Assembly: GCA_025966525.1 (NCBI GenBank)
Contig: JAPDIG010000005.1
Location: 7,323-45,097 of the forward strand
DNA length: 37,775 bases
Direction of reading: 5' to 3'
Source of the DNA: Candidatus Methanophagales archaeon
GTDB lineage: Archaea; Halobacteriota; Syntropharchaeia; Alkanophagales; Methanospirareceae
Position 1 is the first letter of the stretch. Each line of letters opens with the position of its first letter. The notes under the pieces are model-generated. The model was not told the origin of the DNA. It ran no database searches and saw only the letters and a program-made list of their open reading frames with translations. The position numbers and the translations under genes were made by a program. Shown here in pieces: positions 8,129-21,561 of this stretch.

Positions 8129-8530
8129 ATGAAAATAAAAGGTAGAAGCATCTCAAAAGGAGTAGCCACCGGAGAAGCGTTAATTTCAAAGCAGAAAATT
8201 TCATTCCTCGGTGCAGTAGATCCTGCCACTGGTATCATCGTGGATAAATCACTTGATGTCTATGGAAAAGAAATAACAAATCGTATTTTGATATTCCCTG
8301 GGGGTAAAGGCTCAACGGTTGGCTCTTATATAATATACCTGCTTAAGAAGCATGGAAAAAGTCCATGTGCCATGATTAGTCACAGGGCAGATACAATAGT
8401 GGCAGTGGGGGCGATCATAGCAGAGATACCGGTTGTTGATTCGCTTGAGATTGACCCAATTGAAGGCGAACTGATACAGGACGGACAGGAGGTGCTTGTG
8501 AATGGAACCGGAGGCTACATTGAATTTTGA
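8129..8530 (+). CDS. Phosphomevalonate dehydratase small subunit (AcnX small / DUF126)
   Basis: This 133-residue protein matches the swivelling small subunit of AcnX-type aconitases (DUF126). In archaea it pairs with a large subunit to dehydrate (R)-5-phosphomevalonate to trans-anhydromevalonate 5-phosphate in the modified mevalonate pathway for isoprenoid lipids. Landmarks are GRSISKGVATGEALIS at the N-terminus, FPGGKGSTVGSY with the Ser-containing substrate loop, and the C-terminal DGQEVLVNGTGGYIEF. Length is typical. The large subunit is not in this window. The 3' end carries the AGGAGGTG that serves the overlapping next gene, so translation of the two is coupled. Confidence 0.9.
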   Translation: MKIKGRSISKGVATGEALISKQKISFLGAVDPATGIIVDKSLDVYGKEITNRILIFPGGKGSTVGSYIIYLLKKHGKSPCAMISHRADTIVAVGAIIAEIPVVDSLEIDPIEGELIQDGQEVLVNGTGGYIEF

Positions 8531-9542
8531 AATGCGAAAAACGTTGGAAAAGCAGAGATACCACTTTGTAGGCACGCACAAGCATAGTGCGGTAAAAACA
8601 TGTTTATGGCTGTGGAAATCAATAAGAGGGGAGGGAAATTGCTATAAGGGCAAATTTTACGGTATCAGTGCGCACAGATGTGTTCAGATGACGCCCTCTA
8701 TTTTCTGCAACCAGCGGTGTGTCCATTGTTGGCGTCCTCTTGAAGCTTTCACGATAGGAACAGAGCCAGATCTAAAGGAACAGCCAATCGAATGGGATTC
8801 TCCGGAAGAGATAGTAGAAGGATGCATAAAAGAACAAAAAAGGCTTATTTCGGGGTTTAAAGGCTCACCAAAGACAAACCGCAATGCCTTTGCGGAAGCT
8901 GAGGTTCCAAAGCATGCTGCTATTTCACTCATAGGTGAGCCTACTTTGTATCCCTTTTTAAAGGAGCTTATACAGGAATTTCATTCGTATGGCATGACAA
9001 CTTTTGTGGTGACGAATGGCACGAATCCGGACATGCTGCGAGCAATAAGCCCATCTCAGTTGTATCTATCCTTGAATGCACCAAATGAAGCCATTTATAA
9101 AAAGGTTTCACATGCTGACTACTGGTCCCGGATAAACGAATCGCTGGCAGAGATGAAAGCGAAGAAAGGAAAAACGAGAACTGTCATAAGAATCACCTGC
9201 ATAAAAGGACTGAATATGGTGAATCCGGATGGATATGCAGAATTGTTAAAAAGAGCCAATCCAGATTTTGTAGAAGTGAAAGCATATATGCACATAGGAT
9301 ATTCAAGAAAACGGTTGCCTCGTGAAGCTATGCCTACGCATTCGCAGGTGAAACAATTTGCAAGCGAAATTACGGAACAGTTGGTTCATTATAAGATTGT
9401 AGATGAATCGGAGATAAGCCGGGTGATTCTTATGGCTTATAATAGCTCAACCCGCTCTAACAGCGCTTCAAGAGGAACCGAATGCGATTGCACCCCTGCC
9501 ACTTCGTATGCATCCGCGCCCATTGCCAGCGCAATAAGCTGA
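8502..9542 (+). CDS. taw1: TYW1, tRNA 4-demethylwyosine synthase (radical SAM)
   Basis: Radical-SAM enzyme that condenses N1-methylguanosine-37 of tRNA-Phe with pyruvate to form the tricyclic wyosine core. The ATG at 8502 is favoured: AGGAGGTG lies 7-8 bases upstream, inside the preceding gene. The radical-SAM cysteines are C69, C73 and C76 (FCNQRCVHCW), and the second-cluster cysteines C34, C47 and C60 are present with 13-residue spacing as in archaeal TYW1. ISAHRCVQMTP and LIGEPTLYP are also typical. The last ~34 residues, after SRVILM, are a Ser/Thr/Ala-rich tail that lies antisense to the end of the HdrCB-like gene and looks like read-through. Confidence 0.95.
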   Translation: MEPEATLNFEMRKTLEKQRYHFVGTHKHSAVKTCLWLWKSIRGEGNCYKGKFYGISAHRCVQMTPSIFCNQRCVHCWRPLEAFTIGTEPDLKEQPIEWDSPEEIVEGCIKEQKRLISGFKGSPKTNRNAFAEAEVPKHAAISLIGEPTLYPFLKELIQEFHSYGMTTFVVTNGTNPDMLRAISPSQLYLSLNAPNEAIYKKVSHADYWSRINESLAEMKAKKGKTRTVIRITCIKGLNMVNPDGYAELLKRANPDFVEVKAYMHIGYSRKRLPREAMPTHSQVKQFASEITEQLVHYKIVDESEISRVILMAYNSSTRSNSASRGTECDCTPATSYASAPIASAIS

Positions 9543-10927
9543 GCATAATTTATAACTGGCAGTCCAAGTTCCAGACCGCTTTCCTTTTCAATGTGTTCCT
9601 GGTTTCTATCCAGTGTCATCTGGCACCCTGGACAAGCTACAAGAACAACATCCGCTCCTGCCTCTTTAGCAGATAGCAGCTTTCTTTGCGCAATTTCTCT
9701 TGTAAGGTACCTTCGTTCTTCTTCTATTGTATGACCAAAGCCCATACCACAGCATAAGCTCTTTTCCGCATACTCAACAGGCTCTGCTCCAGTAACTAAA
9801 ACAAGCTCATCCAATAAATTCGGTATCGCGGATTTCCTGAACATCTTCGTATAATGGCAGCCATTATGCGTAGCAACTCTTAGACCAGCAAGGCTATGCT
9901 TGCTACGCTTGCTATGCTTTATTTCCTCTTTTATCCTATCTCTTTGCGCCCATAGTATTTCTGAAACGTGGGCTATATTGACCCCTCCTTTGTATTTCCT
10001 GTTCACTTTGCTCAATACTTCTTCATTTACCTGCCTCCCTATTTCACTATTCAAAATCCCTGCTGACTCCGTAAGCACACCGTAACTTGTTTGACAGACC
10101 GGCGCTAAATTCGGATACCCTGCTTCTTCTGCCAGTGCGAAATTCCTTGCATTTACCGCGAGCATTGTGGAAAAAGGTATTTTATCACCGTAATAAGCAA
10201 ATCCCGTACATGTTGAGTGCGCAGGGTCGTCCATATAATCAATGCCAAGCAGGTCAAATATGTATTTTATACTCGTGGTAATACCGGGATAGTGTGCGTC
10301 ACCGATACAACTGTGGAACAAATAGATTTTGCTCTCGGGAATACATTTCTTTACTTCTTCGTTTTCTTTTCCTTTTTTGATTTTTTTATACTCTGTTCTA
10401 TCTACAATTCCCCTTATCTCATCAAGCGATTCCTGAGGTATATCTCGATACAGCCCTTCAAGTCCAAGCTCAGACCGCGTCTTTTTCATGTTATTGTATA
10501 TCTTTTCCCAAGAAGAGCCCCATTCCGGAAACTTATCCGGAGAATGAGTATCCAGTGTCACACATAAACCGGTATCGTAAAACGAATTGCAATGTATCTC
10601 TTCCTGACATTTTAACTTCTCGCTCTCGTTTTCCCTTAAAAACTTTACTATGTCCGCTACACAATTACCTTTTCTGCAAGCGTATTCACAGGCGTGGCAA
10701 GAAAAGCACTTTTCTAATGGATAATCCTCGATATCCCTCCCTGAGATAAGACACTCTACTAATCTTCTCGGATTGTATCTCTTATCTAATGAGGCTGCGG
10801 TGCATACCGAAGTGCACGCACCACATTGAATGCAAGAATAAAAATTAGTGATACGGGGGTCTGTAAGTAGCCAGCGTATCCTGATTTTTCCCAGGTCTTC
10901 TATACAATCAAGCATTTTTTTATACAT
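9437..10927 (-). CDS. HdrC-HdrB fusion protein (HdrD-like heterodisulfide reductase family)
   Basis: The N-terminus carries two ferredoxin-type [4Fe-4S] motifs: C32-C35-C38-C42 and C74-C77-C80-C84. Two CCG domains follow, as in HdrB/HdrD, the catalytic part of CoM-S-S-CoB heterodisulfide reductase. The second CCG domain is complete: C357, C392-C393-G394, C432-x2-C435. The first is degenerate: C207, then C240-Thr241-Gly242 where CCG is expected, then C278 with Ser281 in place of the fourth-position Cys. So it may bind one non-cubane cluster instead of two, and the true substrate is open. No hdrA, hdrE or other partner is nearby. A TATA-like element (about 10952-10964) suggests a near-leaderless start. 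The 3' end overlaps TYW1 by 106 bases. Confidence 0.85.
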   Translation of the reverse strand: MYKKMLDCIEDLGKIRIRWLLTDPRITNFYSCIQCGACTSVCTAASLDKRYNPRRLVECLISGRDIEDYPLEKCFSCHACEYACRKGNCVADIVKFLRENESEKLKCQEEIHCNSFYDTGLCVTLDTHSPDKFPEWGSSWEKIYNNMKKTRSELGLEGLYRDIPQESLDEIRGIVDRTEYKKIKKGKENEEVKKCIPESKIYLFHSCIGDAHYPGITTSIKYIFDLLGIDYMDDPAHSTCTGFAYYGDKIPFSTMLAVNARNFALAEEAGYPNLAPVCQTSYGVLTESAGILNSEIGRQVNEEVLSKVNRKYKGGVNIAHVSEILWAQRDRIKEEIKHSKRSKHSLAGLRVATHNGCHYTKMFRKSAIPNLLDELVLVTGAEPVEYAEKSLCCGMGFGHTIEEERRYLTREIAQRKLLSAKEAGADVVLVACPGCQMTLDRNQEHIEKESGLELGLPVINYAQLIALAMGADAYEVAGVQSHSVPLEALLERVELL

Positions 10928-20774: not shown

Positions 20775-20904
20775 CTTGCGTATTTTAAGACAGAAACGGA
20801 AGACCATATCTGACAATTGCATTTAAGGCAAAAGGCAACTACGAATATTTCTGCGATTAAGTTTTTTAATAACTAAGAGAAATAGGAGTATGAGGTACGA
20901 GTCA

Positions 20905-20916
20905 GATACGCGTATC
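20905..20916. repeat. Perfect 12-bp palindrome upstream of the tRNA gene
   Basis: The sequence gatacgcgtatc is a perfect 12-base palindrome ending 17 bases before the tRNA. It could be a protein-binding site or a 5'-leader hairpin; nothing in the sequence decides which. Confidence 0.4.
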
Positions 20917-20933
20917 ACAGGAACCCTGAAAAA

Positions 20934-21006
20934 AGTCCCGTGGTGTAGCGGTCAAGCATACCGGCCCTTGGAGCCTGTGACGGGGGTTCGAATCCTCCCG
21001 GGACTA
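20934..21006 (+). tRNA. tRNA-Gln(UUG), with C at position 33
   Basis: A 73-base cloverleaf. The acceptor stem is agtcccg (20934-20940) with cgggact, discriminator A73, and no encoded CCA. The D stem is gtgt/gcat with two G-T pairs. The anticodon stem is ccggc (20961-20965) with gcctg (20973-20977), with a C-T mismatch at 28-42. The loop is ccttgga with anticodon TTG at 20968-20970. The T stem is ggggg/cctcc around ttcgaat. The acceptor sequence AGUCCCG...CGGGACUA is that of archaeal tRNA-Gln. Position 33 is C, where U is nearly universal. Reading the loop one base later would give UGG (Pro), but then the anticodon stem does not pair. Confidence 0.85.
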
Positions 21007-21561
21007 TTTAAGCACATCCAGCATCGCAACTCTTTCCAACACCAGCATCTTTAACTTTGACTTGCCCACTGCCTTTAACTCTGCCTCTGTTATGTCAAAG
21101 AACTTCTTTATTTTCTCTTTTTTATTCTCATTATACTCTAACTCCAACTCTAGGATTGGCTCTTCTTGAATCCCTATTTTTCCCTTTATTTCCTCAGCAA
21201 CCATTTCCAAATCTCCTCGTACTCGCGCAGAAGCATCAACAATAACGATTGCAACTCTTTTCTCGGCTTCTGACACAGAAACGCCCATCGCCAATGCTCT
21301 TTCTATCTGCCTTCTTCCTGCGGCATATAAAAGAATCTCCAAGCCAATATCGCTCGTTATATTCCTTTTCATCGCCGTAGCTCTTATTGCTTTTTTCACC
21401 GCTGATATTATATGCTCTCCCCCAGCTATCAGCTCCGCATCCATAGCTTGTATGGTCACGTCGTATTCATGTGCGATATTTTTCAACGAAGAGAGAAAAT
21501 CATCTATGTTGGATATGCCAACTTTACCAACAATTATTTTGTAGTTTAATGGCGTCTCCAT
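21004..21561 (-). CDS. cgi121: KEOPS complex subunit Cgi121
   Basis: A 185-residue subunit of the KEOPS complex (Kae1-Bud32-Cgi121-Pcc1), which makes N6-threonylcarbamoyladenosine (t6A) at position 37 of ANN-decoding tRNAs. Cgi121 binds the tRNA 3' end and Bud32. Family motifs are AMDAELIAGGEHIISAVKKA and LEILLYAAGRRQIERA in order, followed by VAIVIVD. The gene follows asd by 26 bases on the same strand. Its stop overlaps the last three bases of the convergent tRNA-Gln gene. Confidence 0.92.
   Translation of the reverse strand: METPLNYKIIVGKVGISNIDDFLSSLKNIAHEYDVTIQAMDAELIAGGEHIISAVKKAIRATAMKRNITSDIGLEILLYAAGRRQIERALAMGVSVSEAEKRVAIVIVDASARVRGDLEMVAEEIKGKIGIQEEPILELELEYNENKKEKIKKFFDITEAELKAVGKSKLKMLVLERVAMLDVLK

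Follow-up and report, generated by a model that had tools for sequence, protein, structure and literature searches.

A single-copy tRNA-Gln(UUG) gene of an ANME-1 archaeon carries C33 instead of U33, probably as a functional exception to the tRNA rule

The window, i.e. the whole stretch of 37,775 nucleotides that was analysed, originates from the draft genome of a Candidatus Methanophagales archaeon (G000). According to ARAGORN it contains one tRNA gene only, tRNA-Gln(ttg), at 20934..21006 on the forward strand. The gene was also matched over its full length by Rfam RF00005 with 53.4 bits (gathering score 29) and was recovered in the genome-wide tRNA typing, so that its location and identity, first proposed by a sequence-only reading of this DNA, were confirmed. 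The sequence AGUCCCG UG GUGU AGCGGUCAA GCAU A CCGGC CCUUGGA GCCUG UGAC GGGGG UUCGAAU CCUCC CGGGACU A forms a full cloverleaf with a 7-nt anticodon loop and the anticodon UUG (34-36; 20968..20970), on which sequence and ARAGORN agree. All seven pairs of the acceptor stem are Watson-Crick pairs, the first one being A1-U72 as in the aligned orthologues, a pair that plays a role in glutamine identity. The T stem is intact and includes a G-U wobble at 51-63; the acceptor and T arms had both been described as perfect, which is correct for the acceptor but not for the T arm. The D stem harbors the pairs G10-U25 and U13-G22, which are normal in archaea (PMC7668247).

Typing of the anticodon arm (27-43; 20961..20977) disclosed a C28-U42 mismatch, in which C 20962 faces U 20976. 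The loop 32-38 reads C32 C33 U34 U35 G36 G37 A38. Thus, base 20967 is a C at the position where an archaeal elongator tRNA-Gln(UUG) should possess U33. Both features had been read correctly from the letters. U33 is nearly invariant in tRNAs and forms the U-turn of the anticodon loop, which C33 is expected to weaken. An alternative register with the anticodon UGG and U33, corresponding to a tRNA-Pro, was rejected: the pair 31-39 that closes the loop would be lost, and Gln orthologues agree with the gene nearly base for base.

Upstream of the gene, a putative TATA-like sequence, AAGTTTTTTAATA (20859..20871, forward strand), was recognized in a by-eye alignment of upstream stretches. The TATA-like stretch AAGTTTTTTAAT (region 20859-20933) is common to this genome and its relatives. 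Here it lies approximately 75 bases before the tRNA, compared with approximately 45 bases in the sister genomes, which looks like an insertion of about 30 bases in the leader of tRNA-Gln(UUG). Downstream, the sequence is the same in the sister genomes G001 and G002. The convergent gene of the KEOPS subunit Cgi121 (21004-21561, reverse strand; NCBIfam PRK14886 match) overlaps with its stop codon the final three bases of the tRNA gene. Elsewhere in the window reside a gene for the 4-demethylwyosine synthase TYW1, a tRNA-Phe G37 modification enzyme (8502-9542, forward strand), and a gene (9437-10927, reverse strand) for a 496-aa protein that resembles a fused heterodisulfide reductase HdrC-HdrB and stays under the curated family cut-offs.

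With 92% identity between its CTP synthase and the one of Methanophagales archaeon RS_14_10, the window can be assigned to ANME-1, a group of uncultured methane oxidisers. In the draft genome (1.49 Mb, 126 contigs, 94.8% complete) 42 tRNAs were typed, and the survey for C33 covered all of them. Ranking 30th of 42 and lying inside the genome range of 47.7-73.9 bits, tRNA-Gln(UUG) is no score outlier. One Gln(UUG) and one Gln(CUG) gene were identified. A second Gln(UUG) gene, the search for which had been recommended by the sequence-only reading, was not found among the 42 typed tRNAs of this 94.8%-complete draft, and a third Gln-like match (G000:C26:6664) is not a tRNA. Two other genes of the set, tRNA-Met(CAU) and tRNA-Ser(GGA), were called with introns (L026, L039). 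C33 occurs in three tRNAs, Gln(UUG) with the loop CCUUGGA, Gln(CUG) with CCCUGGA and Pro(GGG) with UCGGGGA, while the other 39 possess U33; both glutamine tRNAs and the only GGG-anticodon tRNA of this genome are thus devoid of U33. G36 and G37 are common to all three, in G000 also A38. Among the 9,936 codons of the window, CAA was encountered 58 times and CAG 160 times. In an alignment of the CTP synthase with 76 relatives, Gln was the residue aligned to CAA codons in 89% and to CAG codons in 53%. Given this usage and the Gln at aligned residues, the genetic code is standard and tRNA-Gln(UUG) is needed.

To follow position 33 within ANME-1, a pattern search was carried out over 53 genomes of the order, for most of which full sequences were fetched. 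In Gln(UUG), C was present in 11 of 39 typed genomes (G000, G002, G011, G028, G029, G030, G044 and G046-G049); the other 28, among them the sister species G001, have T. In Gln(CUG) C and T were found in 18 and 25 of 43 genomes, respectively. Even one genus showed mixed states: G000 has C in both Gln genes, G002 in the UUG gene only, and G001 has T in both. Since C33 lies at the same site in the separate assemblies of ten other genomes, chance is excluded, and so is the sequencing error considered earlier. A relative with T at 20967 had been named as a sign of such an error; G001 is such a relative, but with C in 11 of the 39 typed orthologues of the order its T represents true variation. U33 is therefore not required for membership in tRNA-Gln(UUG) in this clade. 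Mapped onto a CTP-synthase tree of 47 genomes, position 33 must have changed at least four times in Gln(UUG) and at least seven times in Gln(CUG), numbers that are approximate because this is a one-gene tree, certain inner branches of which are weak. The remaining six loop positions are invariant in Gln(UUG) and Gln(CUG) of the order, and base 33 is never a purine. As many as four different bases occur at fast-changing sites elsewhere in the gene, in the D loop, the variable loop and the T stem; the pattern at position 33 is thus a restricted C/U switch and not the result of a general loss of constraint.

Positions 28-42 of the relatives are occupied by C-U, C-A or U-C, or are paired, and mismatches, observed with C33, are common in relatives with U33 as well. 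C-A was seen with C33 only, but among related genomes. The C28-U42 mismatch is a tolerated feature of tRNA-Gln(UUG) that is separate from C33. Some divergent sequences were also encountered. On another contig, G001 contains a second, divergent Gln(UUG) with U33 (L080:269-343), perhaps belonging to a mobile element or to another organism, and G024 contains a divergent Gln(UUG) with C33, the D loop of which is longer (L181:160-237). G026 and G051 (L179, L180) harbor tRNA-like elements that were not called by ARAGORN; their D arm is abnormal and their anticodon may be UAA.

In Pro(GGG), a pattern allowing both pyrimidines revealed C33 in all 39 ANME-1 genomes matched. With a wider pattern, the loop UUGGGGU with U33 was detected in the genera g2, g10 and g11; family f2, an outgroup, has CCGGGGC with C33. 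The remaining five members of the class possess U33 in the loop CUGGGGG or UUGGGGU. A change at base 33 goes along with one at base 38: C33 is accompanied by A38 or C38, U33 by U38 or G38. Folding of the isolated C33 arm predicted that U32-A38 and C33-G37 close into a GGG triloop (-10.0 kcal/mol), whereas the U33/U38 arm kept an open loop (-7.0 kcal/mol); this prediction ignores base modification. G37 is normally methylated in archaea, and a methylated G37 would block the C33-G37 pair, for which reason the triloop can be regarded as a lead only. The loop of most ANME-1 Pro(GGG) is UCGGGGA and capable of forming the triloop (L036; L207-L216; L284-L313).

Across 393 genomes of the phylum (Halobacteriota), Gln C33 was found mostly in ANME-1. 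Gln(CUG) genes with C33 that were confirmed by ARAGORN exist in family f32 (four of four sampled), in both members of genus g36 of family f8, and in f12 (G077), f3 (G121) and f6 (G302); G077 also has C33 in Pro(GGG). As C33 of both tRNAs thus occurs in families outside the order, Gln(CUG) and Pro(GGG) have lost U33 more than once. Among the 28 genomes behind named loci that were scanned, true C33 tRNAs were restricted to Methanophagales, and in the 24 genomes of other archaea no C33 was found in the same anticodon class. Pattern matches in G221, G212 and several haloarchaea were discarded, as ARAGORN recognized no tRNA. A generic, non-exhaustive pattern for tRNAs with a 5-nt variable loop and a GG-TTC T arm yielded no convincing C33 case, and with the corresponding pattern for a 4-nt variable loop many of the matches listed were out of register.

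Taken together, C33 of tRNA-Gln(UUG) is probably a real and functional exception to the tRNA rule and not the mark of a broken gene. Three explanations had been offered by the sequence-only reading, a functional exception, editing of the base and beginning decay. The first is backed by the recurrence in other genomes, the single copy, the normal codon use and the lasting conservation. We infer from the gene sequences that tRNA-Gln(UUG) is expressed and functional. Our preferred explanation, which we hold to be rather likely, is that this working single-copy tRNA keeps C33 in its mature form and that U33 has been relaxed to a pyrimidine. It is suggested by the fact that the gene is the only one for CAA, by the lasting conservation of C33 in f32 and in Pro(GGG), and by the existence of known C33 tRNAs. 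In this scheme tRNA-Gln(UUG) would decode CAA and share CAG with tRNA-Gln(CUG), Gln(UUG), Gln(CUG) and Pro(GGG) of ANME-1 would need no more than a pyrimidine at position 33, and decoding would proceed with a somewhat weaker U-turn that these lineages tolerate. In Pro(GGG), retention of C33 may also serve to curb a GGG-CCC pairing that would otherwise be too strong. A retained C33 does not explain why Gln should tolerate this base better than His or Leu, which have the same G36-G37.

Among elongator tRNAs, C33 was already known from Sulfolobales, whose tRNA-Cys(GCA) exhibits C33 clade-wide together with G27-U43 (PMC7668247). Both cases concern archaeal elongator tRNA genes with a C33 common to a clade. 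They differ in isotype and in the pair 27-43: the tRNA-Cys of G000 has U33, and its C33 tRNA-Gln has C27-G43. Moreover, in ANME-1 three other tRNAs are involved and base 33 switches between C and U within genera. Eukaryotic initiator tRNA-Met is likewise a functional tRNA with C33 (PMC9023262), but it enters the P site, whereas the C33 tRNAs of ANME-1 are elongators selected in the A site. Work by Yarus bearing on C33 and the U-turn is cited in PMC11194099. For Sulfolobus tokodaii, whose tRNAs were studied experimentally, position 33 is not mentioned in the main text (PMC4307357), and in the open literature we found no description of a C33 that recurs throughout an order in tRNAs for Gln and Pro.

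Pure switching between C and T, which speaks against a true C33, is also what C-to-U editing would leave behind. According to this second explanation, a deaminase would turn C33 into U in the precursor or mature tRNA, and C or T in the gene would be neutral. It would account for a genomic C at a nearly invariant U, for the exclusive occurrence of C and T at position 33 and for the repeated switches between close relatives, in two tRNAs whose loops are otherwise invariant. There is also a precedent for archaeal editing at an invariant tRNA U, as CDAT8 of Methanopyrus kandleri edits C to U at position 8 of 30 out of 34 tRNAs (PMC3695527). That system resembles the present one by its genomic C at a near-invariant U in an archaeon, but it acts on another position, affects 30 of 34 tRNAs compared with three of 42 here, and is known by its enzyme, whereas the present case is known from genes. 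A genome search confined to the PF00383 family, made without a CDAT8 control, found no dedicated tRNA deaminase; the sole protein obtained resembles dCMP deaminase/ComEB. Furthermore, C33 of Pro(GGG) shows no reversion to T in 39 genomes. Being conserved and covarying with base 38, it is unlike a neutral edited base. Nothing was found in the open literature on ANME-1, tRNA and RNA editing together. We regard editing as unlikely, and correspondingly doubt that ANME-1 possess a site-specific C-to-U editor for position 33 of Gln(UUG), Gln(CUG) and Pro(GGG) that would set C and T free to switch. If it existed, it would constitute a second archaeal tRNA C-to-U editing system, located inside the anticodon loop.

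C33 might also owe its presence to positive selection for a tuning function, by which affinity for the ribosome or the misreading of particular codons would be lowered, similar to the 32-38 pair, an assumption that we consider quite unlikely. It is in line with the coupling of bases 33 and 38 in Pro(GGG), with the pairs U32-A38 and C33-G37 predicted for the isolated arm, and with the same tRNAs being affected in unrelated families. It is known that the loop can attenuate GC-rich anticodons, and 32-38 tuning has been described for tRNA-Ala(GGC) and tRNA-Pro (PMC11194099; PMC6720975). In both cases loop bases evolve with the anticodon, but position 33 lies outside the described pair and the ANME-1 case is known from sequence. 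The Gln anticodons UUG and CUG, however, are not GC-rich, Gln C33 appears and disappears while the rest of the loop stays the same, and the fold suffers from the restriction imposed by G37 methylation. Tuning fits Gln less well than the GC-rich Pro(GGG). To some extent the readings can be combined: Gln could tolerate C33 while Pro(GGG) makes use of it.

That the gene is a decaying pseudogene or the base an assembly or sequencing error, for which the general near-invariance of U33, the 126 contigs of the draft and the T of the sister G001 might be quoted, is extremely improbable: the identical C is present in ten other genomes, one of which, G002, belongs to the same genus, the stems are otherwise intact, the score is inside the genome range, a second Gln(UUG) that could take over is lacking, Gln codons are normally used, and hence neither the low score nor the broken arms nor the redundancy of a tRNA pseudogene was observed, which also speaks against the beginning decay suspected earlier.

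U33 is regarded as a near-universal need for the anticodon U-turn and for decoding. In the environmentally important ANME-1, the only gene for a CAA-reading tRNA often lacks it, and the many switches at this position amount to a natural experiment. The joint changes of bases 33 and 38 in Pro(GGG) suggest that base 33 can help to tune decoding strength. Either the U33 rule is softer than taught for certain anticodons, or ANME-1 harbor an editing enzyme that has escaped notice.
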